Below, in pieces: positions 5,065 to 26,886 of a stretch of DNA of 64,000 nt; the first letter of the stretch is position 1; every line of letters begins with the position of its first letter. The DNA is from Thiomicrospira aerophila AL3. Its GTDB lineage: Bacteria; Pseudomonadota; Gammaproteobacteria; Thiomicrospirales; Thiomicrospiraceae. Both the position numbers and the translations under genes were made by a program. Under the pieces are notes generated by a model. The model searched no databases. It had not been told where the DNA came from and was given only the letters and a program-made list of their open reading frames with translations. The DNA lies in NCBI RefSeq assembly GCF_000227665.2, contig NZ_CP007030.1, forward strand, positions 1,240,001-1,304,000. Reading direction: 5' to 3'.

Positions 5065-5093
5065 TCAAAGAGGATAGTTTTGTCTGGTATAAT
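5065..5093 (+). promoter_or_regulatory. Promoter for leader copy 1
   Basis: An extended -10 (TGGTATAAT, hexamer at 5088-5093) lies about 10 bases before the first base of the conserved leader. A -35 near 5065-5070 (TTCAAA-like) is weak, as is common with extended -10 promoters. This upstream sequence is unrelated to the promoters of leader copies 2 and 3, so the conserved block starts at about the predicted transcription start. Confidence 0.55.
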
Positions 5094-5103
5094 TTTAGGA
5101 AAT

Positions 5104-5267
5104 ATCCACGTTGTGGAGCTTAGGCTTGCATTGCAAGCACCCATCACCGGCCCTCGACTGCTTTAGCCGGTAACGATCCCTTGGATCGTGCAGTCACTGC
5201 TTACAATTCAATTTTAACCCCATGGGGATACATCATCCCTGTGGGGTTCGGTATATCCCCTTTTTTT
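5104..5267 (+). promoter_or_regulatory. Structured RNA leader, copy 1 of 3
   Basis: About 164 nt repeated almost identically at 19418 and 21382, each time between a promoter and the Shine-Dalgarno of an island gene. In order it can form CCAC/GTGG, GCTTGC/GCAAGC, ACCGGC/GCCGGT and CGATCC/GGATCG hairpins. The loop of the third (GACTGC) can pair with GCAGTC after the fourth, a pseudoknot. Near the 3' end GGGGATACA faces TATATCCCC (one mismatch in this copy) followed by seven T, like an intrinsic terminator. CCCCAT can pair with GTGGGG, interleaved with that stem. It may be the radC RNA motif or something similar, which I cannot confirm. A role as attenuator or riboswitch-like regulator is inference. 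Confidence 0.75.
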
Positions 5268-8330: not shown

Positions 8331-8804
8331 TCAGCTTGCAAATATAGGATTCAGGCTTTTAATAACTCCCTCATCCCACACACCGTACCAATTGTTATTT
8401 TGCCCAATTATGATTAAAACTTTCGTTCTATCTCTTGGAAGGTTTTTGCGCCATTCGTTCAGATCAAAAGATGATGGATAAGCATCTTTCTCCGGGTGAG
8501 TGTGCCACTCCCCCAAATATGTTTCTGTGCTGTTTGAGTTTTGCCATGAGTGCATTACCGTTTCAATATGGCTTTTCGAGTATCTGGTAAAGGAGTTTCG
8601 CTTGCATATGTCTTCAGGCTTTGGGGTAGTAAATTGAGTAACCTCAATATGAGGGGTGCGATAGAGGCCAATTAATACACCACCTTTCTCAGTTGCGCTC
8701 GAAGGTTCTTGCCGGTACTGTTCTAGTGAATCCATTAACTTTTTAGGTATTAATAAATATGAGTTTTTATTGAACAAAAAAATCAAGTCTGACAACAGGG
8801 ACAC
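8331..8804 (-). CDS. cap3: CBASS Cap3, JAB/JAMM deconjugating protease
   Basis: A 157-residue JAMM-fold metalloprotease. In type II CBASS this enzyme cleaves the bond that Cap2 makes between the CD-NTase C-terminus and its target. The full zinc motif is visible: E39 before GGVLIG, H101-T-H103-P, and S111-x-x-D114. It is the last gene of the operon and overlaps the 3' end of the Cap2 gene by 22 nt, starting at GTG 8804, which suggests translational coupling. The length is typical. Without the neighbours it could only be called a JAMM protein; with them the assignment is firm. Confidence 0.9.
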   Translation of the reverse strand: MSLLSDLIFLFNKNSYLLIPKKLMDSLEQYRQEPSSATEKGGVLIGLYRTPHIEVTQFTTPKPEDICKRNSFTRYSKSHIETVMHSWQNSNSTETYLGEWHTHPEKDAYPSSFDLNEWRKNLPRDRTKVLIIIGQNNNWYGVWDEGVIKSLNPIFAS

Positions 8805-11751: not shown

Positions 11752-11762
11752 GTGTTTACCCC

Positions 11763-12758
11763 CTAGTTGATTAAAATTGAGCGATCGGCTTGGTGTGACA
11801 ACATTGTTGCTAACAATTCACTACCAGAAACATCTGAAGCAGATTGGGTAGCATTGGCTTTTAATGTCTCAAGAGAGGCCTTTGATGAATTGTCCAAATC
11901 TAAATCCAAGCCTTGCTGCATAGTTGGAGCCGCATCAATGCTTAAATAGTGTGTTTTAGAGCCTAGCTTCCCATTCTCAAGGGCGTGCTGAACCATAAAG
12001 CTGTGCATTTGCTCGTTTGCAGAAATCGTTAAATCAAAAAGTTTTTTACCAAAACTCCACCCCTTCCCGTAACCCGAATTATTGTTCAATCCTGATCGCA
12101 GGGTGAAGCGAGAGCTCATAGTTCCCACGGAAAGAATTCTAATGTTTGATTTATCAATACCAAGCTTATTAACAGCTTCGTGCAGCCCAAGTAACGCTGG
12201 AGAGTTTGCCACCAGCCCACCATCAATGAACTTCTTTGAGTCGAAGGAATGAATTGGAAAGTATGTTGGAGCAGCGCTTGTTGCAAGTGCAACATCTACA
12301 AGGCTCACATCTTGGTCAAATGTGTAGTCTGAATGGTATTTGTTTTTAAACAACTTGGGCTGGCCCGTAGAAGCATTGACGGTTGGGATTAAAACCGGTG
12401 TTTTGAGATCCTTAATCTTTCCATCACCAAAAATATCTGTCAACACACCTCTTAGCGGAGCCTGGGAATAAAGAGGGCCAAAAAATCGCCAAAAATTTTT
12501 ACACCGTATCTTTGGGAAGATTTTTTGCGCATTCTTCTCAAGAAGATCGGATAAATCCGACGGACTCTTACCATAAGCAAGAGCCAAGGCCAAGATTCCA
12601 CCGATAGATGTACCGCAAATAAGGTCAAAATGTTCAGTTATTTTTGTCTGCTTATGCTTTTCTATCTCTGCTAAAACTTTTGCAGAGTAAAGCCCTTTTA
12701 CACCGCCTCCGCTTAGTGACAAAATCTGGAATGGTTTAATATCTAAATTGGTACTCAT
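11763..12758 (-). CDS. capV: CBASS effector CapV, patatin-like phospholipase
   Basis: A 331-residue patatin-fold lipase, the membrane-degrading effector of cGAMP-type CBASS. The oxyanion-hole motif GGGVKG lies at 17-22, the nucleophile S51 in GTSIGG and the catalytic D179 in DGG. There is no signal peptide, so it acts from the cytoplasm on the inner membrane once the cyclic dinucleotide binds, killing the infected cell (family knowledge). It is the first gene of the operon, which runs capV-dncV-cap2-cap3 like the El Tor Vibrio cholerae system. A weak GGTG Shine-Dalgarno precedes the ATG. Confidence 0.94.
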   Translation of the reverse strand: MSTNLDIKPFQILSLSGGGVKGLYSAKVLAEIEKHKQTKITEHFDLICGTSIGGILALALAYGKSPSDLSDLLEKNAQKIFPKIRCKNFWRFFGPLYSQAPLRGVLTDIFGDGKIKDLKTPVLIPTVNASTGQPKLFKNKYHSDYTFDQDVSLVDVALATSAAPTYFPIHSFDSKKFIDGGLVANSPALLGLHEAVNKLGIDKSNIRILSVGTMSSRFTLRSGLNNNSGYGKGWSFGKKLFDLTISANEQMHSFMVQHALENGKLGSKTHYLSIDAAPTMQQGLDLDLDNSSKASLETLKANATQSASDVSGSELLATMLSHQADRSILIN

Positions 12759-13130: not shown

Positions 13131-15122
13131 ATGAACCAAATTAAGCCTGAAATTCTTGCCGACAACTCTGAAACCACAATCAATAGCCAACAAGTTGCAA
13201 CGCTGAAAAAACATTTTCCGCAATGTTTTGACAAGGAAGGCAACTTTATTGCTGAAAAACTGAATGAAATTATTAGCAGTAGTGGCACAGCTTTTTCAAA
13301 GGAATCTTATGGTCTGAGCTGGCTTGGTAAATCTTATGCACGCCTATTGGCAAATGAAAATCCACTTACCTTGCTGGCGGAAGACAAAGAACATAACCAA
13401 AAACCTGAAAACCAGGATAGCGAAAACCTGCTGATTAAAGGTGACAACCTTGAGGTGTTGAAACACCTTAAAGGGGCTTATTCTGAATGCATTAAGATGA
13501 TTTACATCGACCCACCTTACAACACTGGTTCAGATGGTTTTGTTTATCAGGATGACCGTAAGTTTACACCTGATCAACTAGCAGAGCTGGCTGGTATTGA
13601 GCAGAATGAAGCCAAACGTATTCTTGAGTTTACTCAGAGCAAGGCCAATAGCCATAGCGCATGGCTAACTTTCATGTACCCTCGCCTTTACATTGCCCGT
13701 GAGCTTCTAAAAGATGATGGCGTTATCTTTATTTCTATTGATAACAATGAGCAAGCCCAGTTAAGAGTTATTTGTGATGAAGTGTTTGGTGAGGCAAACT
13801 ATTTAGGACTGATTTGCTGGAAAAATGTTACGGATAACAATCCAACAAATATCGCAACTGAACATGAATATATTGTTGTTTATGCAAAATCTAAAGACTC
13901 TGTAAAACCTGTGTGGAAATCGTTTCTCTCTGACGTGAAAGATTTGTTAATTCAAATTGGTGATGAGTTTAATAAGAAATATAAAGATCAAGATAAGCTT
14001 CAAAAGGCATACACAAAATGGTTTCGTGAAAACAAATTTCAACTTGGTGAATTAGATAGGTACAAATATATTGATGAAGAAGGCGTTTACACAGGAAGCC
14101 AAAGTGTACATAACCCAGGGAAAGATGGTTATCGCTATGATGTTATCCACCCTGATACAGGCAAGCCGTGTAAAGAACCCTTGATGGGATACCGGTTCCC
14201 CGAATCAACAATGAAAGAACTTCTTGATAATGACCGAGTTTTATTTGGTAAAGATCATAATAAAATTATTGAATTGAAAGTATACGCAAAGGATTTCAAA
14301 GACAAACTTTCAAGTATATTTGTTCTTGATGGAAGGGTTGGTGCTACCGAGCTAAGAGATTTGTTCCCTGATGTTAAAACAATTTTCACAAATCCAAAAC
14401 CAGTTGAGTTATTAAAAAGACTAATCTCTTTTGCTACAGATCATGGCGATATAGTTTTAGATTTTTTTGGTGGTTCGGGAACCACAGCTCATTCTAATTT
14501 AGCTTTAAATTCAGAAGACAACGGAAGCCGTAAGTTTATTATTATTCAAATTGATGAAAAAACTGATTCCAAGAAAGATGCTCATAAAGCTGGGTTTAAT
14601 ACAATTTTTGAGATTACCAAAGCACGTATTAAAAAAGCCGCTGAAAAAATTCGTGCTGAAAATCCAGATTACAACGGGGATTTAGGTTTTCAAATTTTTG
14701 AAACCTTGCCGGTTTTTGAGGGTTATTTAGATAATATAGAAACCCTTGAAGGAGAACAGGGTGAACTGTTCGACGGCTCAGCGCTATCAGACGATCAACT
14801 TGAGCACCTTCTAAGCACCTGGAAAGTTTATGATGGCATTCCCCTTACTCAACGACTTATTGAAACCGATTTAGCCGGCTACATAGCCTACCGTCACGAC
14901 AGAGTTTTGTATTTAATGCACCAAGGTTTTAGAACCGAATCCTTAAAGGCGTTTCTATCCAGGTTAGATGAAACGGATGGAGATGATAAAAACTTCGACG
15001 TTGAGAAAGTGGTTTTATTTGGTTACAACTTTGACAGCAAAAACCAGTTAGAAATTAATGAGGCGGTTCGCCAATACCAAAATCGCAAAGAGAAAACCGT
15101 TAGTGTTTTGGTGAGGTACTAA
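13131..15122 (+). CDS. mod: Type III restriction-modification methyltransferase (Mod)
   Basis: A 663-residue adenine-N6 DNA methyltransferase subunit, which also recognises the target site. The motif order is that of the beta class: catalytic DPPYNTG at 127-133, then SAM-binding DFFGGSGTT at about 443-451. The long segment between them (about 225-400) is the probable target-recognition domain. The C-terminal 150 residues fit Mod proteins. It forms a two-gene operon with the helicase-nuclease, which starts 1 nt after its stop. The Shine-Dalgarno is weak (AAAGAAA). The sequence specificity cannot be read from the sequence. Confidence 0.95.
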   Translation: MNQIKPEILADNSETTINSQQVATLKKHFPQCFDKEGNFIAEKLNEIISSSGTAFSKESYGLSWLGKSYARLLANENPLTLLAEDKEHNQKPENQDSENLLIKGDNLEVLKHLKGAYSECIKMIYIDPPYNTGSDGFVYQDDRKFTPDQLAELAGIEQNEAKRILEFTQSKANSHSAWLTFMYPRLYIARELLKDDGVIFISIDNNEQAQLRVICDEVFGEANYLGLICWKNVTDNNPTNIATEHEYIVVYAKSKDSVKPVWKSFLSDVKDLLIQIGDEFNKKYKDQDKLQKAYTKWFRENKFQLGELDRYKYIDEEGVYTGSQSVHNPGKDGYRYDVIHPDTGKPCKEPLMGYRFPESTMKELLDNDRVLFGKDHNKIIELKVYAKDFKDKLSSIFVLDGRVGATELRDLFPDVKTIFTNPKPVELLKRLISFATDHGDIVLDFFGGSGTTAHSNLALNSEDNGSRKFIIIQIDEKTDSKKDAHKAGFNTIFEITKARIKKAAEKIRAENPDYNGDLGFQIFETLPVFEGYLDNIETLEGEQGELFDGSALSDDQLEHLLSTWKVYDGIPLTQRLIETDLAGYIAYRHDRVLYLMHQGFRTESLKAFLSRLDETDGDDKNFDVEKVVLFGYNFDSKNQLEINEAVRQYQNRKEKTVSVLVRY

Positions 15123-15123
15123 G

Positions 15124-18100
15124 ATGACCGGTTTTAACTTTGAAAAAGACCTTGCTCATCAAACTGATGCAGTCCAATCAATCATGGCTGTTTTTAGCAA
15201 AGTGGCCAAGGTTGAAAATAATCCTCAACCTGCAATGACCATGTTAAGCAATCCATCCGCATCTTTCAATAGCGATGTTGAATTTGGCATGACCGTGGTA
15301 CAAATTCAGAAAACAAATCAAATTACCAAGCCAAACTCTATCCCTGTAATCAACAAAAAGAGCCGTGTACTCGATATTTCAATGGAAACCGGTACGGGTA
15401 AAACTTATACCTATACCAAGGCTATATTTGAACTCAACAAAGCCTTTGGCATGACCAAATTCATTGTCGTTGTACCCACGCTCTCCATTAAAGCTGGTAC
15501 CGTAAGTTTTCTTCGCTCAGAAGCCACTAAAAGACACTTTATGGAAAGCTACAACGGTAAACAGCTAAAGATCCATGTTGTTGAGAGTCAAAACGGAAGC
15601 AGAAGCAAAAAAGCTTATATGCCTCAGTCTATCATAGACTTTGTTGAAGCGAAAAAACACCCTAATCCTGCACTGGATAATACCATCCACATCATGGTTA
15701 TTAATGCTGGAATGATTAACTCGGACACCCTTAGCAAGAAGTTCGACACTCGCATTAATGACACTTACGATAATCTCTTTGATGCGATTGCATCTGTCAA
15801 TCCAATTACAATTATCGACGAACCCCATAAATTTAAGCAAGAGAATGCAACTTGGCAAAACATCCTAAAGTTTGGTTCTCAATACACCTTGCGCTTTGGG
15901 GCTACTTTTGATGATCGTTACGAAAACCTTATCCATGAATTATCAGCGGTTGATGCATTTAATCAAGATCTTGTAAAAGGTGTTGTTGCAGACATTGAAA
16001 TGTTTGATGGCGGTTCGGATGAGCACATCAAGCTACTCTCATACGGCGCAAAAGCCATCCGTGAAGTAGAAATTAAGTCTGGAAAGGACAAGGGGCAAAC
16101 AAGTAACAAGGAGTTCCCTGAGGCCAAATTTGAGTATTTTAACGGAACTAAAAAGATGGTTTTCAAGTTGATTGAGGGAGAAAGCCTTTCAATAATCCAT
16201 CCTGAAATGGATGGTATCTACATTGAGAAACTTAACACTCAAAAGGTGCTGCTTTCAAATGGATTGGAGCTTAAAAACAACCAAAAAATTAGCCCCTACT
16301 CTTATTCATCAACCATTCAAGACAAAATGATTGCCAAAGCAGTTAAGCGTCACTTTGAAATCGAAAAATCACTACTTTCTCGTGATGTAAAAATTAAGCC
16401 TCTAACCCTGTTTTTCATTGATGACATTGAGGGGTACCGGGGTAATCACGAAATCACCGGTGATCTCAAAGCTAAATTTGAAGCCCTGCTCAAACAGCAA
16501 ATTGAAAACATACTCAAAGAAGATGGCTTAACATCCTTTTATCGCACATATCTGGAAGACTCTATACAAGACCTGTCGGTTTGTCACGGTGGTTATTTTG
16601 CACAAGACAATAGCGAGACAGACGAAGCCATTGAAAAAGAAGTCTCAGAGATCTTGCATGATAAAGAATCACTTCTGAGCCTTGATAACAAAAGAAGATT
16701 CATTTTCTCTAAATGGACACTGCGTGAAGGCTGGGATAACCCGAATGTATTCCAGATTTGCAAATTACGCTCTAGTGGCTCACAAACATCGAAGCTACAA
16801 GAGGTTGGACGTGGATTACGATTGCCAGTAAACGAGTATATGAGCCGAGTTAAAAATGAAGCTTTCGATCTGTACTACTACGTGGATTTCTCAGAGCGTG
16901 ACTTTGCAGAACAGCTAGTCAATGAAATCAATCAAAAATCAGGACAAACACCGGTTGAAAAACTCACCAAGCTCACCGATACAGTTGTGCAAAGTATTAT
17001 TGCAAAGTATCCCGAACAATCCGTGGATACCATTCGCAATACATTGGGTGAAGCTGGCGCAATTGATTTTTCAGGAAACTTCAAGGAAGGCGGTTTAGAC
17101 ATTATCAAAGCTGAGTTTCCAAGCGCCTTTGAAGCGGCTGGAGGCTTGAAAAAAGGCAAGGTTCGCGTTGAAGGGAAAACCAAGTCCAGTGCAACTCTTC
17201 GTGTTGGTAAGTACACCGAACTCCAAAAGTTATGGGAGGCAATTAATCAGCGCGTAATCTTAGAATATAAAATTAATAGCGAATCGGATTTTCAGGCCAT
17301 TTTTGAATCCTACTTAATAGACTATAAAGAGTCCTTTAAGCCACGCGGTAGTGTGTCACAAACCAAACGATTGATCTTTGACAACGGGCTTGCTTCTTTA
17401 AAAGAAGAGGATGATCTTGATAATGAGATTCTGCCAATCGTAACACTGCATTACAGACAGTTTATTGAAGAGCTTGCCGTACTGCTTGGCGTCAACATGA
17501 TAACGTTGCACAAGGCATTTGTCGCGGTCAAAGATAGATTAAATATCAATGATTATTTGAGTCATCAGACTATCCGAACAATAAAGGCGCAGTTTCATAA
17601 ATACTTACTGGATAATGCTTTTTCAAAGTTCCATATTGGGTACCAACAAGTATCAAATAAAGTCCACCCTACTGTTTTTACATACGAAAATGGAAAGCCC
17701 CGGACTAACATCCCAGCTCATAACTTGGGGGTGCATTGTGATGAATCAAAACCTGCGGATCAATACCTCTTTGAAGAAGTTTTCTATGATGCGCCCCTTG
17801 AGCAGGAAAACATTAAGAAGTCGATTACAGGAGTTACTGTATTTACCAAAATACCACGCAACTCAATACGCATACCGGTTGCTGGAGGCGGTACCTATTC
17901 GCCAGACTTTGCTTATGTAGTTGAGTACGAGAGTGGTCAGAAGCAACTTAACCTCATTATTGAAACCAAGGACAAAGAAAAGCGTGCCCTATTTGATGAT
18001 GAGAAGCAAAAAATCAAGCACGCTCAAGAACTCTTCAGCTCATTAAAACAAGGTTTTGAGGTTCGATTTGAAACGCAATTTAAGAATGCTCAGATCAAAG

Positions 18101-18132
18101 AGATTCTTCAACAAGCTATTAATCAGGCCTAG
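15124..18132 (+). CDS. res: Type III restriction endonuclease (Res)
   Basis: A 1002-residue restriction subunit combining an SF2 helicase/ATPase and a nuclease. Walker A METGTGKT ends at K93-T94, the DEPH box is at 232-235, a motif III-like RFGATFDD follows at about 257, and the helicase C-terminal motif QEVGRGLRLP is near 560. The C-terminal PD-(D/E)xK nuclease is seen as SPD928 followed by E947-T-K949. All key residues are present, so the enzyme should be active with Mod. It cuts DNA where unmethylated sites lie in opposite orientation (family knowledge). With the CBASS operon it makes this part of the ICE a defence island. Confidence 0.95.
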   Translation: MTGFNFEKDLAHQTDAVQSIMAVFSKVAKVENNPQPAMTMLSNPSASFNSDVEFGMTVVQIQKTNQITKPNSIPVINKKSRVLDISMETGTGKTYTYTKAIFELNKAFGMTKFIVVVPTLSIKAGTVSFLRSEATKRHFMESYNGKQLKIHVVESQNGSRSKKAYMPQSIIDFVEAKKHPNPALDNTIHIMVINAGMINSDTLSKKFDTRINDTYDNLFDAIASVNPITIIDEPHKFKQENATWQNILKFGSQYTLRFGATFDDRYENLIHELSAVDAFNQDLVKGVVADIEMFDGGSDEHIKLLSYGAKAIREVEIKSGKDKGQTSNKEFPEAKFEYFNGTKKMVFKLIEGESLSIIHPEMDGIYIEKLNTQKVLLSNGLELKNNQKISPYSYSSTIQDKMIAKAVKRHFEIEKSLLSRDVKIKPLTLFFIDDIEGYRGNHEITGDLKAKFEALLKQQIENILKEDGLTSFYRTYLEDSIQDLSVCHGGYFAQDNSETDEAIEKEVSEILHDKESLLSLDNKRRFIFSKWTLREGWDNPNVFQICKLRSSGSQTSKLQEVGRGLRLPVNEYMSRVKNEAFDLYYYVDFSERDFAEQLVNEINQKSGQTPVEKLTKLTDTVVQSIIAKYPEQSVDTIRNTLGEAGAIDFSGNFKEGGLDIIKAEFPSAFEAAGGLKKGKVRVEGKTKSSATLRVGKYTELQKLWEAINQRVILEYKINSESDFQAIFESYLIDYKESFKPRGSVSQTKRLIFDNGLASLKEEDDLDNEILPIVTLHYRQFIEELAVLLGVNMITLHKAFVAVKDRLNINDYLSHQTIRTIKAQFHKYLLDNAFSKFHIGYQQVSNKVHPTVFTYENGKPRTNIPAHNLGVHCDESKPADQYLFEEVFYDAPLEQENIKKSITGVTVFTKIPRNSIRIPVAGGGTYSPDFAYVVEYESGQKQLNLIIETKDKEKRALFDDEKQKIKHAQELFSSLKQGFEVRFETQFKNAQIKEILQQAINQA

Positions 18133-18487
18133 CTTTGAGTATGAATTTTCTAAGAAATCGAATAAATATTTAAACACTTCTATTCATGTCCAATACTACA
18201 AACTAATTTTGTAGCTTGAAAATAAGCCCTTGCAGTTTGTTTTACAAATATTAAAGCAAAAAGAGCAATGGGCCATGCGCCGGGCGGTGTGTTCACCTCG
18301 CTATACCACTCGACTTAGTGAAGTGATGGTGGTTTCATAATAGGGACAATGCAAATTTACTAAATCCAGTGACATGGCGCATAAATTTTAAAAAAACTTT
18401 TTCTAACCTTGTAATTCTGGCTTGTCATCCCCTGCCTGATAGAATCGACGGCATCTTAATCGTGCTCTAAAAAAAGTGATTCACGCA
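18133..18487. other. Intergenic region after res
   Basis: About 350 bases without a supportable gene. A 7-bp hairpin CTACAAA/TTTGTAG with a 5-nt loop (18196-18214) may help end the res transcript, but it has no U-tract. The remainder is A/T-rich except for a G/C-rich island at about 18270-18300. A promoter for the following small gene must lie here, but I cannot place it with confidence. Confidence 0.4.
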
Positions 18488-18754
18488 ATGAAAAAGTCCG
18501 AAAAGCTGATGATTCAAGCAATTCGCAGAGAGAAAGTTAAAGCTCTATGGCATGAGGGTAAAACATGCTCTGAAATTGCTAAATTAATCGATTCAAATAT
18601 GCCAACTATTATGCGTGATTGCCGTGCTATGGATTTGCCGACATCTAAAGAAGAGCGTGCTAGTGTGCAGTTGCTGCAAAACATTGAACCCGACCCTGAA
18701 GCCGATCTCTGGCACTGGGCCACATACCGCAAGCCGCTTAACCGGCTGGTTTGA
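18488..18754 (+). CDS. Small helix-turn-helix protein
   Basis: An 88-residue basic protein from the ATG at 18488 (a GTG at 18476 in the same frame is possible). The middle holds a helix-turn-helix: a recruiting helix KALWHEGKTCSEIAKLI followed by a recognition helix around MPTIMRDCRAMDLP. The pattern is like the DNA-binding part of GcrA-like or resolvase-type HTH proteins. It is probably a small regulator, with an unknown target. It ends 22 nt before the signal-peptide nuclease-fold gene and may be co-transcribed with it. Confidence 0.6.
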   Translation: MKKSEKLMIQAIRREKVKALWHEGKTCSEIAKLIDSNMPTIMRDCRAMDLPTSKEERASVQLLQNIEPDPEADLWHWATYRKPLNRLV

Positions 18755-18776
18755 CTTTTTAACGACGGAGATAAAT

Positions 18777-19331
18777 ATGAAATTTAGATTTTTAGTTCTA
18801 ATCGTACCGCTTCTTGTTACTTCACAGTTGGTTGCCGCCCAAAAGCTGCCATTTGGAGGGGAAGTTACTAACAGATACGGCCCATCTACATCGGAAGTTG
18901 ATGTACTTGAAGTCATAAGAGGCGACCTAATCCGTGTTAGAGGTGAGGTCAGAACTTATGAGCTGCATTTAATGAATATCATGACACCCGCATATAACTA
19001 TCCTGATATTTGTAATCAAGCGTATGGTAAAGAGGCTAAAGAATACCTTAAAAATAGAATAGATGGTAAGCGTATAACTGTTAGGGAATACCCGCCCTAC
19101 TATCCCGAAACGAGGGGAGTTGTTTATTTAAACGGAGTAGATATAAACATGGAGTTGATCGAAGAAGGACTAGCCTGGCCGGGGCGACCGATTGGAATGA
19201 CCCACTACTATGAGATTAAAGAAGCTTTTGATCGGTTTAAGCATAGAGGGGTTCGAGTTTTTTCTGAACCAGACCCGGTTCACCCACACAAATTCATTAA
19301 TAATGAATCAGATAGAAAGTGCGTTAAATAA
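18777..19331 (+). CDS. Secreted staphylococcal-nuclease-fold protein, probably inactive
   Basis: 184 residues from the ATG at 18777, which has an ACGGAG Shine-Dalgarno. A clear signal peptide (MKFRFLVLIVPLLV, cleavage probably after VAA near residue 21) is followed by an SNase-like domain, recognisable by the order of strands and the ending VYLNGVDINMELIEEGLAWPG. The active-site segment, normally RLxxIDTPE, reads HLMNIMTPA here, so the catalytic Arg, Asp and Glu are all replaced, and the DGDT turn reads RGDL. It is therefore more likely a binding protein than a nuclease. It acts in the periplasm or outside the cell. The exact alignment is by eye. Confidence 0.75.
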   Translation: MKFRFLVLIVPLLVTSQLVAAQKLPFGGEVTNRYGPSTSEVDVLEVIRGDLIRVRGEVRTYELHLMNIMTPAYNYPDICNQAYGKEAKEYLKNRIDGKRITVREYPPYYPETRGVVYLNGVDINMELIEEGLAWPGRPIGMTHYYEIKEAFDRFKHRGVRVFSEPDPVHPHKFINNESDRKCVK

Positions 19332-19355
19332 TGTACTAAGGCCTTCAAACCCACA

Positions 19356-19380
19356 ACCCACACTTCGGTGTGGGTCTTTA
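19356..19380 (+). terminator. UUCG terminator
   Basis: Perfect 8-bp stem ACCCACAC/GTGTGGGT with a TTCG tetraloop (19356-19375), followed by CTTTA. It ends the transcript of the SNase-fold gene. The U-tract is short and runs into the -35 of the next promoter. Confidence 0.75.
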
Positions 19381-19404
19381 CATTAAGCGATTTGGTATTA
19401 AAAT
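19377..19404 (+). promoter_or_regulatory. Promoter for leader copy 2
   Basis: TTTACA (19377-19382), a 16-base spacer, then TAAAAT (19399-19404); each hexamer is one base from consensus. It lies 14 bases before the structured leader. Confidence 0.65.
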
Positions 19405-19417
19405 CGTTTGTTGTAAG

Positions 19418-19581
19418 GATCCACGTTGTGGAACTTAGGCTTGCATTGCAAGCACCCATCACCGGCCCTCGACTGCGTTAGCCGGTAACGATCCCTTGGA
19501 TCGTGCAGTCACTGCTTACAATTCAATTTTAACCCCATGGGGATACATCATCCTCATGGGGTTCGGTGTATCCCCTTTTTT
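19418..19581 (+). promoter_or_regulatory. Structured RNA leader, copy 2 of 3
   Basis: Same fold as copy 1. The four hairpins and the GACTGC/GCAGTC loop pairing are all perfect. In the 3' part CCCCATG pairs exactly with CATGGGG, interleaved with GGGGATACA/TGTATCCCC (9 bp), which is followed by TTTTTT. This gives an H-type pseudoknot or a competition between a terminator stem and an alternative stem. The Shine-Dalgarno of the methyltransferase gene (AGGAGAT) begins about 12 bases after the T-tract. This copy shows the intended pairing best. Confidence 0.8.
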
Positions 19582-19605
19582 GTTTTTCAAATTAGGAGAT
19601 ATGCT

Positions 19606-21309
19606 ATGTCAAGTTTACTAGAGCAAGTTAAGCTTTTTAACGAGGATTATGAGTGGTACCCAACCACGAATGAACAGATCGACGCCGTTTATCTGAAGCT
19701 GAAGCAACTTAAAGAGAAACGCTATTCACTTTTAGATATTGGCGCTGGTAATGGTAAGGTTTTATCACGATTAACTGATTTAGGTAGTATGGATCCCTCA
19801 GTTGATGGATATAACAAGGTTATACCAGCTAAAAAGTATGCCATCGAAAAGTCTAAGCCACTGATTGACGCACTTCCTGAAGATGTGTTTTTGGTAGGTT
19901 GTGATTTTTATGAGCAAACTTTAATCGACAAAAAAGTTAATGTTATATTTTCTAACCCACCCTATAGCCAGTTTTCTGAATGGGCAGTTAAGATTATTAA
20001 GGAGGCAAGAGCTTCTCACCTCTTTATGGTTTTACCTAAAAGATGGGTTTTTGATCAATCAATTCATGAAGCGCTTGGTATTCGTAAACCTTTCTCGACT
20101 AAAAAGGGCAAGTTGGGTTATGAAATACTTGGTAGCTTTGACTACCATAATGCTGAAGACCGCAAGGCTCGGGCTAAAGTTGATGTGATTTATATTTCAT
20201 TGGGTCATGATTATTATGGGTCAATGGATATGGAAACAGATCCGTTTAATGTTTGGTTCAATGAATCATTTTCGGGCCTGAGTGCGCCGAAAAGTAAGAT
20301 TGCTGAATATGAGCGAAAGCAAGCTGAGCGGGATAGCATGTCATCTAAAATCAAAGATCAATTGGTGAAAGGTGATGACCTGGTTCAAGTTCTAGTTTCT
20401 TTGTATGAATCAGAAATGAGTCATCTTTTTCAAAATTATAAAAGCGTCAGTGAGCTTGATGCTGATATTTTGAGAACGCTTGATGTAAATATTGAATCAA
20501 TCAAAGAGGCGCTAAAGCAACGCATTGAGTCGATGAAGGATCGCTACTGGCGTGAACTTTTCGATAAGCTTGACAAAATTACATCCAAGCTTACACATGA
20601 TAGTCGTAAAGTGGTTTTGGATACACTGACTTGTAATACAAGTGTTGATTTTAATCACGGTAATATTTATGCGGTTTTGTCTTGGGTCTTCAAGAACGCT
20701 AATAAGTATTTTGATTCTCAGTTAGTTGATACTTATGAGAGGATGATTGAAAAGGCAAACATTGTTCCGTATAAATCCAATCAACGTGTCTTTGCAGATT
20801 TTGATTGGCGTTATAATCGCAAGCCTGATGACTTAACGCACTTTAAACTAGACTATAGGATCGTGTTAGAGCGAGTTGGAGGGATTTGCAATGACTCTTC
20901 TCGCTATGGACAAGAAAGGTTTAATGGCTTATCTCAAGGGGCAGCCAACCTAATTGATGACTTATGCACCATTGCATCTAACTTAGGTTTTGTGGTCTTT
21001 GAAAACCATAAAAGCTTTTTTTGGAATGCAGGTAATAAAAATGCCATCAGATATAGGGATGCTCAGGGGATTTGGAATGACCTTTTGGAAGTAAGAGCGT
21101 TTAAGAATGGTAACTTACATCTTCGACTGTCATCAAAGTTCGCTGCAAAACTGAATGTTGAGTTTGGTAGGCTAAAAGGCTGGTTAACCTCCGCATCAAG
21201 TGCTGCAAGTGAGATTGATATTAGTGATGAAGACGCTTTGGATTCATTTCGATCTAACTATGTTTTAACAATCGAAAATGCTAACAACCTAATTGGTTTT
21301 AGAGGTTAA
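19606..21309 (+). CDS. Class I SAM DNA methyltransferase, probable DUF4942 C-terminus
   Basis: 567 residues from the ATG at 19606, with an AGGAGAT Shine-Dalgarno; upstream in-frame starts lie inside the leader RNA and are rejected. The N-terminal methyltransferase domain has SAM motif DIGAGNG (44-50) and catalytic NPPY (117-120), as in adenine-N6 DNA methyltransferases. A helical middle (about 230-340) leads to a C-terminal domain with LSQGAANLIDDLC and FKNGNLHLRL, which I associate with DUF4942, common on ICEs. There is no partner nuclease beside it, so it is probably an orphan methyltransferase protecting the element. It has its own promoter and structured leader and lies between the two 230-bp repeats. 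Confidence 0.8.
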   Translation: MSSLLEQVKLFNEDYEWYPTTNEQIDAVYLKLKQLKEKRYSLLDIGAGNGKVLSRLTDLGSMDPSVDGYNKVIPAKKYAIEKSKPLIDALPEDVFLVGCDFYEQTLIDKKVNVIFSNPPYSQFSEWAVKIIKEARASHLFMVLPKRWVFDQSIHEALGIRKPFSTKKGKLGYEILGSFDYHNAEDRKARAKVDVIYISLGHDYYGSMDMETDPFNVWFNESFSGLSAPKSKIAEYERKQAERDSMSSKIKDQLVKGDDLVQVLVSLYESEMSHLFQNYKSVSELDADILRTLDVNIESIKEALKQRIESMKDRYWRELFDKLDKITSKLTHDSRKVVLDTLTCNTSVDFNHGNIYAVLSWVFKNANKYFDSQLVDTYERMIEKANIVPYKSNQRVFADFDWRYNRKPDDLTHFKLDYRIVLERVGGICNDSSRYGQERFNGLSQGAANLIDDLCTIASNLGFVVFENHKSFFWNAGNKNAIRYRDAQGIWNDLLEVRAFKNGNLHLRLSSKFAAKLNVEFGRLKGWLTSASSAASEIDISDEDALDSFRSNYVLTIENANNLIGFRG

Positions 21310-21321
21310 ATCTTAATCACA

Positions 21322-21346
21322 ACCCACACTTCGGTGTGGGTCTTTA
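21322..21346 (+). terminator. UUCG terminator after the methyltransferase gene
   Basis: Identical 8-bp stem ACCCACAC/GTGTGGGT with a TTCG loop (21322-21341), 12 bases after the methyltransferase stop codon. Confidence 0.75.
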
Positions 21347-21370
21347 CATTAAGCGATTTAGTATTAAAAT
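21343..21370 (+). promoter_or_regulatory. Promoter for leader copy 3
   Basis: TTTACA (21343-21348), 16 bases, TAAAAT (21365-21370), as in the other cassette copy. Confidence 0.65.
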
Positions 21371-21381
21371 CATTTGATGTA

Positions 21382-21547
21382 AGGATCCACGTTGTGGAAC
21401 TTAGGCTTGCATTGCAAGCACCCATCACCGGCCCTCGACTGCGTTAGCCGGTAACGATCCCCTGGATCGTGCAGTCATGCTTACAATTCTATTTTTAACC
21501 CCATGGGGATACATCATCCTCATAGGGGTTGGTGTATCCCCTTTTTT
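21382..21547 (+). promoter_or_regulatory. Structured RNA leader, copy 3 of 3
   Basis: All hairpins and the GACTGC/GCAGTC pairing are kept. GGGGATACA/TGTATCCCC plus TTTTTT is perfect. The interleaved pairing is weaker, since CATAGGGG has one extra A against CCCCATG. The Shine-Dalgarno AGGAGATA follows directly (21551). The following gene is short and of unknown function. Confidence 0.78.
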
Positions 21548-21563
21548 GTCAGGAGATACACCT

Positions 21564-22019
21564 ATGAAAATTCAAACTGTGTTCTATAAAGAAAATCCAG
21601 CTAAACCAGGATTCATGATGCTTGATCGCTATGCAACGATTCAAGAAATTGAAGACCAGGTTCATGCTGTATTATCTGTTTCACACGAAATTAACAACTT
21701 CAACACTTCAAGATTAATTGGCGAGCAGTTAACAAGCTGTCTCTTTAATGGCTTGGAGTATGAGTGGCTAAGTTGGGATCGTAGCATTCTTGATTGGCGA
21801 GCAGATCCTAAAACCACTGTATTACCCGAAAAGTTTGCTTATAACCTTCATTTTTTAGTAAGGAAGGGTAACTCTGAGGGTATGGTTATTTCATTGCTCC
21901 ACCTATCCAATGACGGCAAGTTTACTGAAGTTTGTTCAATCAAATACCTCGGTTATACCGATGAACAGGTGTACTTAATTGGCAATCACCTATCAAAAGC
22001 ACTAAGTTTGGGCTACTAA
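21564..22019 (+). CDS. Hypothetical protein behind structured leader copy 3
   Basis: 151 residues from the ATG at 21564, with an AGGAGATA Shine-Dalgarno. An earlier in-frame start at 21477 lies inside the leader RNA and is rejected. A soluble alpha/beta protein with several Trp and Asp (SWDRSILDWRADP), no signal peptide and no recognised motif. It is the target gene of leader copy 3 by position. Confidence 0.7.
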   Translation: MKIQTVFYKENPAKPGFMMLDRYATIQEIEDQVHAVLSVSHEINNFNTSRLIGEQLTSCLFNGLEYEWLSWDRSILDWRADPKTTVLPEKFAYNLHFLVRKGNSEGMVISLLHLSNDGKFTEVCSIKYLGYTDEQVYLIGNHLSKALSLGY

Positions 22020-22068
22020 TTGATTCGATTCATCGTTAAACTTGTCACAATTCACCCAAGGAATCTAA

Positions 22069-22644
22069 ATGAAAACTATCAAAATGATTACAGCAGTCAT
22101 GCTTGCGGTATCCGTATCTAGCTGCATGGCCACATCAAAAAAACCGCTTAATATATCAGATGATGACTGGGCGGCTATGTCAGATGAAATGAAGTTATAC
22201 GCTTATGAGCGTCAAGCTCAACTTGATGCACAATACAATGCTGAACTTCAAAGACAGCAATCAGCACCAACCCCCGTTATGCCCGAGTCATTAACTGGCT
22301 CAACGGCGGATTCATACGGCCAGCGTGTTCAATGCACATTGAATGGCGAGGCTAGAATCGGTGGTAAATGGCGTAAGGCTGAACCTTTTGGTTTCGATAT
22401 TGGTCGTGCTGAAAGCGTTGAATTTGATCTTTACTCTGGCAATCACAGCAGCTTTGGCACGGCGACATTTGATGGTGTGAATGTTCAAGCTTGCGGTACA
22501 ACTAACTTACCCAGTTATTGTGTTCGCATTGCGGCAACAGCACATCAGCTTGATAGAGGCGGGATTAGTCAATCCGTTTCATCAAGTCACTTTTTTCGCG
22601 GCGAGATGACATGCTCACTTGCTGATAGGCCAACGCGTCGCTAA
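22069..22644 (+). CDS. Putative lipoprotein
   Basis: A 191-residue protein with a lipoprotein signal peptide ending in VSSC (C19), so probably lipid-anchored after processing. Next comes a charged, Gln-rich helical linker (about residues 40-75), then a beta-rich domain with three Cys (about 100, 141 and 150) that could form disulfides. I do not recognise the family. It lies 49 nt after the gene of leader copy 3 and may share that transcript. A strong terminator follows. Some ICE lipoproteins act in entry exclusion or mating, but nothing here shows that. Confidence 0.65.
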   Translation: MKTIKMITAVMLAVSVSSCMATSKKPLNISDDDWAAMSDEMKLYAYERQAQLDAQYNAELQRQQSAPTPVMPESLTGSTADSYGQRVQCTLNGEARIGGKWRKAEPFGFDIGRAESVEFDLYSGNHSSFGTATFDGVNVQACGTTNLPSYCVRIAATAHQLDRGGISQSVSSSHFFRGEMTCSLADRPTRR

Positions 22645-22653
22645 TCAATTAAT

Positions 22654-22674
22654 GCACCTCGTAAGAGGTGCTTT
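22654..22674 (+). terminator. Terminator after the lipoprotein gene
   Basis: GCACCTC/GAGGTGC 7-bp perfect stem with a GTAA loop, followed by TTTCCC. 10 bases after the stop codon. Confidence 0.7.
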
Positions 22675-22782
22675 CCCTACCTTAAATTTCAAAATAACTT
22701 TTTTATTTTTTGTTTTACCCACCCTCCCCTTCACTTTTGCGACAATTGCCCGAAGTCATTTTGAACCACTTAGGGATAAGGT

Positions 22783-23448
22783 ATGTCACACAATTTAGTC
22801 CAGGTTTCTTTTTCCACCCATCGCGTAATTAAGTTTTTGGATGGAATCTATGAATTTGGGCCAACAATTTATTACCAGTCTGTATCGGACATTGACGATG
22901 GTTTAAAGCTTTTTGATGCGGTCATTTCGCAACTTTGTAATGATCAGCTCAATACGGCTCTAAGACGTATTGAAACCCTAGCTAACAAAAAACGCATTAC
23001 GATTAAACCGTTTGAACTCAAAGTCATTGCTCAGGCAACTGATCAAGAATGGTCAACGCTGAAAAATGATTATCAAAATATGGCCGGGCGCAAAATAGCT
23101 ATCAATGAATCTATTGTTTTATTGATTACTGACCAGCTTAAGGAGCGTTATGAGGGGTCTCAGGCGTGTATTGGCGACGAATTTAATTTTGACGAATTAG
23201 CGATAAAAATCAGCGAAGATCTTATTGGTCAAGGGGATGTAAGAGCCTTAATCGCTCATCGTTTACTTGAGTCAGGCTGTTTTGCTGTAGTCGTTTACGA
23301 CAAGCACACAAAAGATAGGTGGGATCCAATGAAAGTGAGCTTCAAAGAGTTTGTATCCACCCATTCTGCTATATCCGCTTATGTTGATTATGAGTCAGCC
23401 AAGAGTTTTGATGATATTTATAACTGGATCAATTGCTTGCAAGCCTAA
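22783..23448 (+). CDS. Hypothetical protein upstream of the relaxase
   Basis: A 221-residue soluble protein, Ile/Asp/Lys-rich, mostly helical with a few strands. Its ATG follows GGGATAAGG. It has no motif I can name. The stop codon is 2 nt before the relaxase ATG, so the two genes are almost certainly one operon. A role in DNA processing or relaxosome function is possible by position only. Confidence 0.65.
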   Translation: MSHNLVQVSFSTHRVIKFLDGIYEFGPTIYYQSVSDIDDGLKLFDAVISQLCNDQLNTALRRIETLANKKRITIKPFELKVIAQATDQEWSTLKNDYQNMAGRKIAINESIVLLITDQLKERYEGSQACIGDEFNFDELAIKISEDLIGQGDVRALIAHRLLESGCFAVVVYDKHTKDRWDPMKVSFKEFVSTHSAISAYVDYESAKSFDDIYNWINCLQA

Positions 23449-23450
23449 AT

Positions 23451-25535
23451 ATGCTAAATTTCCTGATCAATAAGCTAAAGCATAACGACGCCAAACTCCT
23501 TAAAAGTAATGGGGTACATCATGGTCGCTATTTAAAGCGTCTGCCGGTCGAGCGGTTATTGCATTCGTACAATGATCAGTTGGATGAAATTAAGGTCTTA
23601 ACTGGCATCCCTGACAAGCATTTTGACTATCTCTACCTTACACCTCTCAAAACCTATATTAATTTTATGCAGCTGGCACCGGCCAGTGAATCACATCATC
23701 ATGCAGACCATGGCGGAATGCTTGAACATACCTTAGAAGTCGTTGTTAATGCACTGAGACTTCGACGGGGCCAAATATTGCCAACGGGTGTGCCACCGGA
23801 AGAAATTGAACATCGTAAAGACATTTGGACGTTTGTTGTCTTTGTCAGTGCTTTATTGCACGACGCCGGTAAACTAATTTCAGATGTTGAATTTCATGGT
23901 GAACAAGGGGATGTTTGGCATTTACTTTCAAGCGCCCCGCCTCCCCCCCTGTATCGTGTTGTTTACAACGCCGGTCGCCGACACAAGTTTCATGAAAAAC
24001 TAGCCTCATTTGCGCTGTATAAAATATTTAACCAAGATCACATTAACTGGGTTATGACTGATGATGAGGCCTGGTATGCACTGGTGAACTATTTGACTGC
24101 AAATTATACCGAGGCCTCCATCATTGCTGAGATTGTTCAAAAAGCTGATCAGGCCAGTGTAATCGCTAACCTTGGTGGCAATGTGAATGATGCGATTAAG
24201 CGACCTGTGCAGGCCCTAAGCTTACCTGAGCGGTTACTTAAATCGCTACAGCAGCTACTTGAAGAAAATGCCATCGGAATTAATAAACAAGGCGCTATGG
24301 GTTATGTAGATGGTGACTATGTTTATTTCACCGTAAAACCCATGTTGGATAAAGTAAAAGAGAAAATGCGCGATCAAGGCCTCTCCGTACCGGCTTCAAA
24401 CAATACGCTTATGGGTGAGTTACAACAATCTAAAATCGTTGAATCAAATGGTGATAAAGCAACTTTCAGAGTACGGGTTAATGTAGGCAGTTGGCAACAA
24501 GATTTTAGTGTTTTAAAGATTCATGTAATGAAGGCCTGGCCAGAAAAACGCCCCGCCATTAATGACACCATTAGCGTAGTTCAGATTAACGATGATGGCG
24601 ACGTTATACAAGCAACTAAAGCCCCTGATAATAACAGCCCTGCCCAAGCTGGAGTGCCCTCCAGTGAGAATCAGAAAACCGTTAGTGATCCAAAGACTGA
24701 TCAGAATCATCAAGTATTGCCAGAAAAGCCAGTTCAAACTCAACCCGCACAACCAAAACAAGTTACACCGGATAGCACTATTACAGAAAGCTTAGCGGAG
24801 CCGTTGATTGAGGATTTGGCTGATTTGGCAGAATTAGACGAAGTAATGGGGCTGGTGGGTGAACCCAATCAAGTTGAAAATAATTTTGATGAATTGGCAG
24901 GTATCGATCTTAATGATGATGGTGATGATACGGATGACTGGTCGCCAGCGATGATAGACGATGAAATCGACGATAAAAATAATATTGGTGGCGTTTCACA
25001 CAACAAGCCTAAGTCTGATCAATCAAGGCTAGAAGCTGACCATAACAACCGCAAGAGCGTAATTGATGAAGTTAAAAATCAGATAACCGAAGGGCCTAAA
25101 AACTTCATCAACAAATACAATGATGAGGTTTTAGATACTCAAATTACTTTTGCAGACCTAGAGGATCCGGGCGCTCAGTTTATCGGTTGGCTTAAAGCAG
25201 GACTTAAAACAGGTGCCATTCCGCTAAATATAGCGGGTGGCCCGGCTCACTTTGTTAATGAAGGTTTATTTTTAGTTTCTCCTCAGATTTTTAGAACATT
25301 TCAGACTGAAACCGGTGTGGGTTGGTCGCAAGCCCAGCGTTCAGTTACAAAATCCAGTCGAAAAATTAATCTGAAAACCCCAAAAGGGGAAAACATGTTC
25401 ACCTATGAAATCTTGTCAAAGACAGGCCGAACAAAAGATATAAGCTCAATAAAGGGCATATTAATCCCCAAGCCATGCGAAAAGCTAGGATTAACGCTTG
25501 ATGAAAGAAATACAAATATGAAGATTGTTGAGTGA
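23451..25535 (+). CDS. traI: MobH-family conjugative relaxase (TraI_2, PFL_4751-like)
   Basis: 694 residues from the ATG at 23451. The N-terminal third is the TraI_2 relaxase domain with HD-type metal motifs: HHHADHGG (82-89) with LEHTLEVV just after, and LLHDAGKL with H137-D138. These relaxases nick the ICE at oriT and pilot the strand during transfer. A Pro/Gln/Asp-rich linker (about 400-560) separates a conserved C-terminal domain (about 570-690, FIGWLKAGLKTG...FVNEGLFLVSPQIF) typical of ICE relaxases of about 700 residues. The ATG has a poor Shine-Dalgarno and probably depends on translation of the gene 2 nt upstream. oriT is not identified. Confidence 0.9.
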   Translation: MLNFLINKLKHNDAKLLKSNGVHHGRYLKRLPVERLLHSYNDQLDEIKVLTGIPDKHFDYLYLTPLKTYINFMQLAPASESHHHADHGGMLEHTLEVVVNALRLRRGQILPTGVPPEEIEHRKDIWTFVVFVSALLHDAGKLISDVEFHGEQGDVWHLLSSAPPPPLYRVVYNAGRRHKFHEKLASFALYKIFNQDHINWVMTDDEAWYALVNYLTANYTEASIIAEIVQKADQASVIANLGGNVNDAIKRPVQALSLPERLLKSLQQLLEENAIGINKQGAMGYVDGDYVYFTVKPMLDKVKEKMRDQGLSVPASNNTLMGELQQSKIVESNGDKATFRVRVNVGSWQQDFSVLKIHVMKAWPEKRPAINDTISVVQINDDGDVIQATKAPDNNSPAQAGVPSSENQKTVSDPKTDQNHQVLPEKPVQTQPAQPKQVTPDSTITESLAEPLIEDLADLAELDEVMGLVGEPNQVENNFDELAGIDLNDDGDDTDDWSPAMIDDEIDDKNNIGGVSHNKPKSDQSRLEADHNNRKSVIDEVKNQITEGPKNFINKYNDEVLDTQITFADLEDPGAQFIGWLKAGLKTGAIPLNIAGGPAHFVNEGLFLVSPQIFRTFQTETGVGWSQAQRSVTKSSRKINLKTPKGENMFTYEILSKTGRTKDISSIKGILIPKPCEKLGLTLDERNTNMKIVE

Positions 25536-25627: not shown

Positions 25628-26509
25628 ATGAATCAAGTTATTAATGATGACGTAAATGACCTTTTAACCTCTCAATTAGCAAAACTTGTAGGAGCCAATA
25701 AACCCCGAATGTTATTTGATGATGCCGTTCAAAAGTTTGTGTCTGAATCAAATAACAAAGATGAAGTCGGTGAACTTCATTTATTTAAGGTGATCTCCCC
25801 CTACTTCAAAGGGATGTATCTCGATCAGATCACCCGGCAAGACATTAATCGCCTGATAGAAGGCAGAAAAGCCGATGGCGTGTCGAATACAACTATTAAT
25901 CGAGCGTTACAGAAGATTAGAGCCTTGTTAAGACGCGCTGCCATTGAATGGGATGTGTTGTGTGATGTACCCCATATTAAGTTACTCAAAGAGCCAAGAT
26001 TGAGGGTTAGGTGGCTCACCAAGATAGAGGCCAGTCGATTAGTAAGTGTATTGCCAGATCATCTTGCCGCCATGATGCAATTTACCCTTGAAACTGGTTT
26101 ACGTGAATCTAACGTAACCCTATTGGAATGGCGACAGATAGATTTACATAACAGGGTTATTTTCATTGAAGGGGATGATGTTTTAAAGGGTGAAAAATCG
26201 TTTGCTGTTCCCCTATCAGAGAAAGCCATGTCAATCCTTATAAAAGAGCGAGGCAAACATACCACACGCGTGTTCACCTACAAGGACAAACCTGTTAGAC
26301 GAGCCAATGGACGAGCGTTTAGGAAGGCACTACAGCAAGTGAACATAGAGGATTTTAGGTGGCATGATCTACGTCATACCTGGGCTACGTGGCATGTGCA
26401 GAAAGGCACCCCGCTACACGTTCTCCAAGAACTGGGTGGCTGGCAAAATATTAACATGGTCAAACGCTATGCACACTATGATCATAAATTTTTGCATCAG
26501 TGGGTATAG
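25628..26509 (+). CDS. int: Tyrosine integrase of the ICE
   Basis: A 293-residue tyrosine recombinase with the complete catalytic set: R159 (ETGLRESN), a Lys near 188-190 (LKGEK), H246-x-x-R249-H250 (WHDLRHTW), W272 in the H/W position (LGGW) and nucleophile Y281 (VKRYAHY). The N-terminal part (about 25-110) is a SAM-like core-binding domain. It is shorter than the common 400-residue tRNA integrases. The ATG follows AGGAATCCGCACAA. The gene is the last of the island and reads toward the 3' end of tRNA-fMet 300 bases away, the typical layout for an element integrated in that tRNA gene. Confidence 0.94.
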   Translation: MNQVINDDVNDLLTSQLAKLVGANKPRMLFDDAVQKFVSESNNKDEVGELHLFKVISPYFKGMYLDQITRQDINRLIEGRKADGVSNTTINRALQKIRALLRRAAIEWDVLCDVPHIKLLKEPRLRVRWLTKIEASRLVSVLPDHLAAMMQFTLETGLRESNVTLLEWRQIDLHNRVIFIEGDDVLKGEKSFAVPLSEKAMSILIKERGKHTTRVFTYKDKPVRRANGRAFRKALQQVNIEDFRWHDLRHTWATWHVQKGTPLHVLQELGGWQNINMVKRYAHYDHKFLHQWV

Positions 26510-26699: not shown

Positions 26700-26809
26700 C
26701 CAGATAGTCTAAGTTAACTAAAACTTAGGGAACTGCATTTCTGCATGGTTTGATTTTAATGCCGTGATAGTTGATTTTCAACCTCTTTCACAACATTAAT
26801 ATCGAAAAT

Positions 26810-26886
<77 letters not shown>

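Follow-up and report, generated by a model that had tools for sequence, protein, structure and literature searches.

Upstream of ardC and other establishment operons, pLS20 carries EGeRS1 regions that are 62-95% alike and rich in inverted repeats, and the establishment genes of the pLS20 family are variable and spread across multiple operons (excerpted text of PMC8708921). The same excerpts put the length of EGeRS1 at 420-751 bp, report that no strong promoter was found in it and describe EGeRS2 as repressor-based. In F (Frpo1 and Frpo2) and in ColIb-P9 (ssi), similar stem-loop promoter regions precede early genes, including anti-restriction genes and methyltransferases (excerpts of PMC9849209, PMC11541004 and PMC7736820). 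Here we describe a control module of about 230 bp from an integrative and conjugative element (ICE) of Thiomicrospira aerophila AL3. The whole stretch analysed, which we call the window, is 64,000 nucleotides long (G000:C1:1240001-1304000 of the 2.16-Mb genome), and two direct copies of the module in it flank a methyltransferase-like gene. An earlier note, made from the letters of this stretch, had read the copies as the brackets of a cassette.

Results

The repeated leader module

The two repeats (Table 1) start 1966 bp apart and are 95.7% identical over 233 alignment columns, gaps included, a similarity beyond chance (E about 1e-102); two ungapped blocks of 160 nt (98%) and 57 nt (95%) enclose a short stretch offset by compensating 1-nt indels. 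The earlier description of two almost identical repeats of the same length is thus borne out, at about 96% identity. As brackets of one cassette they fare less well: each makes up the control region of its downstream gene, and further genes of the ICE are preceded by this module too. A search of the whole genome with copy 1 returned ten places, all within 1218272-1261549 and all inside the ICE; seven include the pseudoknot part described below (86-100% identical over the matched part) and three the last hairpin only. A covariance model lifts the pseudoknot-bearing leaders of this genome (G000) to nine, seven closely similar and two diverged, all within the attachment (att) bounds of the element. 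The genes behind leaders include ArdC, RadC and the DUF4942 methyltransferase, and several are without a known family; the diverged copies lie upstream of a DUF3577 gene and of a non-coding stretch, respectively. As a separate observation, in each of four ICEs the leader after the DUF3577 gene precedes a structured-looking non-coding stretch, not a gene, with common motifs such as GCCCCTTAGTGC (by eye). The loci of leader and stretch are L009 12847-13260 (C1:1217847-1218260), L024 about 10715-10300 minus, L076 about 18556-18100 minus and L090 6274-6700, and the stretch might be a replication origin or specify a regulatory RNA.

The module consists, in order, of a UUCG hairpin shortly past the upstream stop codon (A), a promoter-like site in an imperfect palindrome (B), a pseudoknot (C) and a double hairpin (D). 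Of the seven closely similar G000 copies, five include A and B and the other two, 5120 and 13270, have different upstream parts; D without C also stands upstream of later cistrons (L009 13661, 14077 and 16048). In C, a hairpin (GCTTGC/GCAAGC in copy 1) is followed by a stem whose loop pairs with a stretch past a third stem (stems CCGGC/GCCGG and CGATC/GATCG, pseudoknot GACTGC/GCAGTC). The repeat boundary is the T-run of D, and the ribosome-binding site and start are part of the gene. For the methyltransferase we chose the start at 19606, after AGGAGATATG; the open reading frame (ORF) tool had taken the upstream ATG at 19537. Besides its DUF4942 domain, the gene has a methyltransferase match slightly under the Pfam cut-off. 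Each repeat had been credited with a UUCG terminator, a promoter and a structured leader. A hairpin and a promoter-like site are indeed present in both, and the fold z-score, computed for the copy-1 leader, is -5.6 (none of 200 shuffles as good); the terminator is less secure, as the hairpin is reported by a terminator scan yet its tail, CTTTACATT, makes a poor U-tract. Promoter matches count for little by themselves, the region having three such sites against a shuffle mean of 6.6.

Presence and absence in sister elements

In G007, a genome of the same genus, a related ICE has the order nuclease gene, one leader, gene Y, and no methyltransferase. Its segment 32787-33901 matches the nuclease gene and the leader, and 33681-36980 matches the leader and gene Y onward (reverse-complement coordinates). 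A check on related ICEs for the unit at this leader had been proposed, and the sole sister ICE found answers it with a single leader between the same neighbours. None of the other 61 genomes searched in the family, among them G007, has the methyltransferase, and gene Y is present in two of the 62 (G000 and G007). The gene Y leader and the G007 leader share TTGG in D and the ribosome-binding-site context, both of which the methyltransferase leader lacks. This is as expected if the methyltransferase unit entered at the leader, though few sites are concerned.

Gene content behind leaders is patchy in a second case, that of genomes G035 and G029. The order in G035 is a 79-amino-acid (aa) gene, a leader, a 227-aa gene, another 79-aa ORF, a leader and ArdC, with the two leaders 93.8% alike; in G029 it is a 79-aa gene, a 216-bp repeat with a tiny ORF, a leader and ArdC. 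The 227-aa protein was found in two of the five genomes searched (G035 and G000) and is absent from the whole G029 genome. We also note that the 216-bp unit of G029, tiny ORF included, is duplicated at 97.7% identity and flanks the leader-ArdC unit (L024 reverse-complement 11614-11829 and 13281-13496). G427, a bin labelled Methyloprofundus sp., shows a third arrangement: on its contig C231 the matching backbone site, which precedes the small conserved gene, TraI and the integrase, has two leaders followed by other genes. A search of G427 for gene Y, run without a positive control, found none. Among the 11 G000 genes preceded by a leader or by D, five have no homologue in the sampled segments (not whole genomes) of the other four elements. 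The gene content behind the module is variable and mosaic, and the suggestion that the leader-driven genes of the island are assembled as modules holds at the level of presence and absence. Separately, the ArdC encoded on the ICE contig of G427 (L080/L090) is 91% identical to that of the host, which could reflect transfer between distant hosts or a misbinned contig.

Relatives of the methyltransferase occur in 32 of 72,556 plasmid records, all below 60% identity, and in two of 50,697 phage records; on a Pseudoalteromonas plasmid the relative lies among other genes near tra genes. Beside DUF4942 and TnpB genes on L095 (NZ_CP023400.1), eight repeats of about 28 nt at an exact 60-nt spacing (9063-9519) look like a small array of clustered regularly interspaced short palindromic repeats (CRISPR) on a plasmid.

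Conserved RNA pairing

The pseudoknot was assessed in 28 leaders, from G000 (9), G007 (2), G029 (7) and G035 (10). A loop-to-downstream helix of 5-9 bp is possible in all 28 with very different sequences (GACTGC/GCAGTC, GGTCTC/GAGACC, GACACC/GGTGTC, GAATCC/GGATTC and GGTTTTAC/GTAAAACC); in the G035 DUF3577 leader the best-scoring helix lies elsewhere in the loop. Across the 18 distinct loops the mean helix score is 15.9 against 12.8 for swapped pairs, a mean that none of 20000 permutations reached, and shuffled downstream stretches gave a mean of 11.8 (maximum over 300 such means, 13.1). The near-identical G000 and G007 leaders are uninformative on pairing, with no pair changed on both sides among nine leaders.

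For D we used 35 elements picked by script and filtered for a ribosome-binding-site-like motif, an arm motif and a hairpin of at least 7 pairs. The 3' arm is complementary to the element's own ribosome-binding-site region (14.9 vs 13.0, standard deviation 0.32; 0 of 20000 permutations), and the two sides change together, as in GTGTATC/GATACAC, ATATATC/GATATAT, ACGTATC/GATACGT and GCGAATC/GATTCGT. In minimum-energy folds the ribosome-binding site is paired in all five D elements folded. The comparison of closed D with D open at its 3' end is usable for gene Y (-35.3 vs -25.9 kcal/mol) and for the G035 ArdC element, g35_ardC (-32.5 vs -26.1 kcal/mol); elsewhere masking of the ribosome-binding site is partial, and g29_11272 used the wrong arm. 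Five T directly follow the D arm in 25 of the 35 elements. Our first mechanism had been processive antitermination by C with D as the terminator, which fits the occurrence of one C before several D (L009 13270-14150). It was displaced by translational control, given the D elements that lack a T-run and the folds that hide the ribosome-binding site; antitermination is a conceivable alternative. Across the window no leader matches an Rfam family at the gathering cut-off; within 18000-23000 the six matches up to E 10 (best E 0.33) are all far under their own cut-offs, and seven leaders have no match up to E 1.

Distribution and homogenisation of the leader family

The leader family is present in five genomes, namely four of the 62 searched in the family and the bin labelled Methyloprofundus. 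Model R2 was built from alignment A4 (22 rows), which combines 13 leaders with 9 short matches of the palindromic first hairpin on the opposite strand and is without the G035 and G427 copies. Among 369 genomes of the class none but the host gave a credible leader match (under stricter filters, with few candidates scored per genome), and the remaining 200 genomes of the Methyloprofundus set gave none. With the narrow model R1 the 369 class genomes yielded the host and two weak matches (L026 and L027), rejected on reading, and R2 matches in G148 and G209, from a class draw of the same size, were judged ordinary coding sequence on reading the DNA. Three leader patterns and the peptide patterns of gene Y had no match in any viral contig. 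A methyltransferase peptide-pattern scan of named genomes matched 12 stretches, none confirmed as a relative. The plasmid search with the leader gave a best E of 0.6, and a longer query matched the DUF4942 gene only.

Leaders are mostly alike within a genome (g0_ardC and g0_geneY, 99.1%; g35_ardC and g35_154aa, 93.4%) and less so between genomes (g0_ardC and g35_ardC, 32.5%; g29_ardC and g35_ardC, 62.0%). In the leader tree, some nodes of which are weakly supported, the two G007 leaders fall together (0.92), and their P4 loops are each two bases shorter than those of the G000 copies; g29_ardC and g29_78aa are only 69.8% alike over a compared stretch that includes 30 upstream bases. The G000 copies are mosaic: an indel tract of the methyltransferase leader recurs in the 5120 leader alone, and its CCTCAT variant in the gene Y leader alone. 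Mosaicism and within-genome likeness together fit the footprint that would be expected of gene conversion, unequal exchange or the recent spread of one copy.

The host element

The host element is a PFGI-1-class ICE: its TraI relaxase scores above the TIGR03760 and MobH cut-offs, and an att repeat at a tRNA gene has an integrase adjacent to it. It is 63.5 kb long between 65-bp identical att sites (attL at C1:1203385-1203449; attR in the window, Table 1) and carries DUF3577 and topoisomerase genes. Immediately left of the leader-methyltransferase unit is a type III restriction-modification pair (window 13131-18132), which gives this part of the ICE the look of a cargo region. Elsewhere in the window a phospholipase effector, an oligonucleotide cyclase and an E1-E2 protein match PADLOC models (8783-12758 minus) and resemble a cyclic oligonucleotide-based antiphage signalling system. 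A 1318-bp stretch occurs twice at 100% identity (window 2723-4040 and C1:1209447-1210764); the window copy has inverted repeats near its ends, and the stretch is probably a recent insertion sequence.

Table 1. Features of the window (window coordinates; C and D, parts of the leader module as defined in the text)
Feature	Position	Strand	Remark
Leader module, copy 1	19352..19581	+	upstream of methyltransferase gene
Leader module, copy 2	21318..21547	+	upstream of gene Y
Methyltransferase-like gene, DUF4942 domain, 567 aa	19606..21309	+	bracketed by the repeats
Gene Y, 151 aa, without family match	21564..22019	+	77% aa identity to G007 counterpart
Nuclease-like gene, SNase domain	18615..19331	+	left neighbour, present in G007 too
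Small gene without family match, lipoprotein-like by eye	22069..22644	+	right neighbour, also in G007 and on G427 contig C231
UUCG hairpin, terminator-like, weak U-tract	copy 1 19356..19375; copy 2 21322-21341	+	
Promoter-like TTTACA-16-TAAAAT, copy 1	19377..19404	+	10/12 consensus positions
Promoter-like TTTACA-16-TAAAAT, copy 2	21343..21370	+	
Imperfect palindrome enclosing promoter-like site	copy 1 19378..19416; copy 2 21344-21382	+	
Pseudoknot RNA element (C), copy 1	19435..19512	+	predicted pairing
Pseudoknot RNA element (C), copy 2	21401..21478	+	predicted pairing
Double-hairpin element (D), copy 1	19533..19604	+	GTGTATC (19566-19572) can pair with GATATGC at ribosome-binding site (19598-19604)
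Double-hairpin element (D), copy 2	21499..21561	+	GTGTATC (21532-21538) can pair with GATACAC at ribosome-binding site (21555-21561)
Third leader copy in window	5093..5266	+	has the pseudoknot and D; upstream part is its own, with TATAAT
TraI relaxase, MobH, PFGI-1 class	23433..25535	+	
Tyrosine integrase adjoining att site	25628..26509	+	
attR, 65 bp, tRNA-Met 3' end	26805..26869	.	identical to attL C1:1203385-1203449

Discussion

We conclude that the 230-bp repeats are probably copies of an establishment-type control module that lets genes such as ArdC, RadC and the methyltransferase plug in and out through recombination between leaders. The module would be placed before many accessory ICE genes that are probably of the establishment phase, a role that we regard as likely for the leader-driven genes. 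Each copy would end the upstream transcript and start a new one from the promoter within the palindrome; the RNA leader would then fold into the pseudoknot and the double hairpin, the second hairpin hiding the ribosome-binding site until it is opened. Given how little the module differs from one gene to the next, units could be added, dropped or homogenised by recombination between leaders, with their junctions left intact. The methyltransferase and its leader would be one such unit, which the host ICE has and the sister ICE lacks. We infer both the agent, homologous recombination, and any direction of change, and the putative termination, promoter and switch activities are predicted from sequence and folding.

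A number of observations weigh against this reading. Gain and loss of the methyltransferase are indistinguishable, as a single sister ICE was found to share both neighbours; the G007 leader of the 5120 type is without a ribosome-binding site and start, and since this other leader has lost its ribosome-binding site the G007 element may be decaying. In the second case the 216-bp repeat of G029 lies between the 79-aa gene and the leader, which leaves no clean empty site. The leaders of G000 form two clusters and one single site across 45 kb, and one copy each in G035 and G029 is oriented opposite to the others. Homogenisation within genomes is not uniform either: the non-coding RNA leaders of G029 and G035 group across genomes (72%, support 0.95), and the G007 gene Y leader is 90.7% like the host gene Y leader and 86.9% like the other G007 leader. 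The permutation tests for C and D treat related sequences as independent, and their figures should be read as guides and not as probabilities; for at least three of the 35 D elements the start used in scoring is doubtful, and for the D of the methyltransferase it lay five bases too early. Ten of the 35 D elements are without five T past the arm, so a terminator role is not general. Finally, the methyltransferase relative of G427, about 60% identical, is leaderless, its parts lying at the ends of two contigs (L100 1-250 minus and L101 1-450). No leader was found upstream of its start, the best model match on either stretch scoring 6 bits (E 1.4), and again no leader match accompanies a RadC relative about 3 kb downstream of the second part (L101 3489-3944). 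Such relatives imply that methyltransferase and RadC genes also travel without a leader and that the ICE seems to place them under one. The claim that the gene between the repeats is a self-contained unit open to loss, gain or swap must be trimmed to match: the pattern of presence and absence fits it, but the unit is not indivisible.

The leaders could instead be alike as a regulon under one regulator, through selection and gene conversion, the methyltransferase having moved by another route and the repeats being a by-product. That the module also precedes genes common to most elements (ArdC in four of the five sampled), that gene conversion alone would explain the within-genome similarity and that the G427 relatives of the methyltransferase and RadC have no leader would all suit a regulon. 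We nevertheless consider it unlikely, as leaders form the exact bounds of the variable gene at the G007 site, where the alternative allele carries precisely one leader, and the G035/G029 pair is similar, though less clean. Were the repeats the recombination sites of a site-specific, integron-like cassette system, the palindromes near the left edge of many units would have a ready explanation; the identity, however, spans the whole 230 bp of promoter and leader, with RNA pairing conserved down to the ribosome-binding site, and the sole integrase among nine window proteins scanned adjoins the att site (no attC search was made). On this anatomy we set integron-like cassettes aside as highly improbable.

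Two further explanations concern the function of the palindrome. It might be an operator of an ICE-encoded repressor, as in EGeRS2, the genes staying on until the repressor accumulates in the recipient. The palindrome overlaps the -35 and -10, and p576 offers a precedent in a repressor acting on strong promoters upstream of establishment genes (PMC8708921, as excerpted), yet the G029 palindromes vary in sequence from leader to leader, which a single operator-binding protein would hardly tolerate, and we find a repressor rather doubtful. We favour a structural role, because G035 and G029 have promoter palindromes too, but of different sequence. One such role would be that of a Frpo-like single-strand promoter of the leading region, folded on the entering strand so that anti-defence genes are on before second-strand synthesis. 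Promoter-spanning stems in about 16 of 36 leaders (a soft count, by eye), their sequence families differing between ICEs, are consistent with this. So are the z-scores of -3.5 or lower in 20 of 36 upstream windows, although these also count UUCG and other small hairpins. A Vibrio fluvialis plasmid has a DUF4942 homologue with psiA, parB and radC, upstream of a mobF gene, and Frpo1 and Frpo2 of F, 92% alike and about 5 kb apart, are named as a possible recombination substrate (excerpts of PMC9849209). What makes a Frpo-like promoter improbable is that in the G000 type the outer 5' arm carries the -35 and the -10 lies close to the loop and 3' arm, so that no one duplex holds both; moreover, some leaders are without such a stem (z -0.06 for the 5120 leader), and both window copies also match an ordinary promoter.

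A bolder form of our proposal, which we advance tentatively and as somewhat more likely wrong than right, is that an undescribed structured-RNA family, which joins a pseudoknot to a ribosome-binding-site switch on a palindromic promoter, serves as a universal plug. Anti-defence genes would join an entry-phase regulon through it, inter-copy recombination would swap them, a version homogenised in each lineage would favour exchange within that lineage, and the leaderless relatives in G427 would be the recruitment stock. Shared control regions would link the switching of anti-defence genes at entry with the exchange of those genes, two matters usually studied apart. If such regions are where exchange occurs, the composition of anti-defence islands can be tested leader by leader, and the pseudoknot leader offers a handle for finding establishment-type genes in related ICEs.

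Comparison with known systems

None of the papers listed in searches of an open-licence collection is on this leader family. The host element resembles other PFGI-1-class ICEs in its TraI relaxase, its DUF3577 and topoisomerase genes and its tRNA att site; it differs in the leader family, which was seen in the five genomes given above. A parallel design is seen on the V. fluvialis plasmid NZ_CP046854.1, where the DUF4942 homologue (44% identity) lies near psiA, parB and radC, upstream of mobF. Repeats of about 300 nt flank a four-gene block that includes the homologue, and a GGCCGGAGTTCGTGGCC-type hairpin (five copies) and a TTGACA..GATAAT promoter-like repeat (three copies) stand before several genes (L094 870-10346). 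The neighbourhood resembles the leading regions described in the excerpts of PMC11541004 and PMC7736820. In contrast to the likeness in design, the sequence is unrelated and has no RNA-model match.

For a recombination point the closest parallel is Frpo1/Frpo2 of F, as far as the excerpts of PMC9849209 describe them. Compared with Frpo and ssi, there are more copies here, at three places in the ICE, and an RNA leader is added; in the predicted folds of the G000 type the -35 and -10 are not rebuilt in one stem, and any single-strand activity would be putative. The closest in kind is EGeRS, compared here in outline with its excerpted description: in both, a similar regulatory region precedes ardC and several other genes of one element. 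EGeRS belongs to Bacillus plasmids and the present module to ICEs, and the latter is about 230 bp long and combines a promoter-like site with a conserved pseudoknot and a hairpin that covers the ribosome-binding site. The leader module is thus known in kind and new in form.

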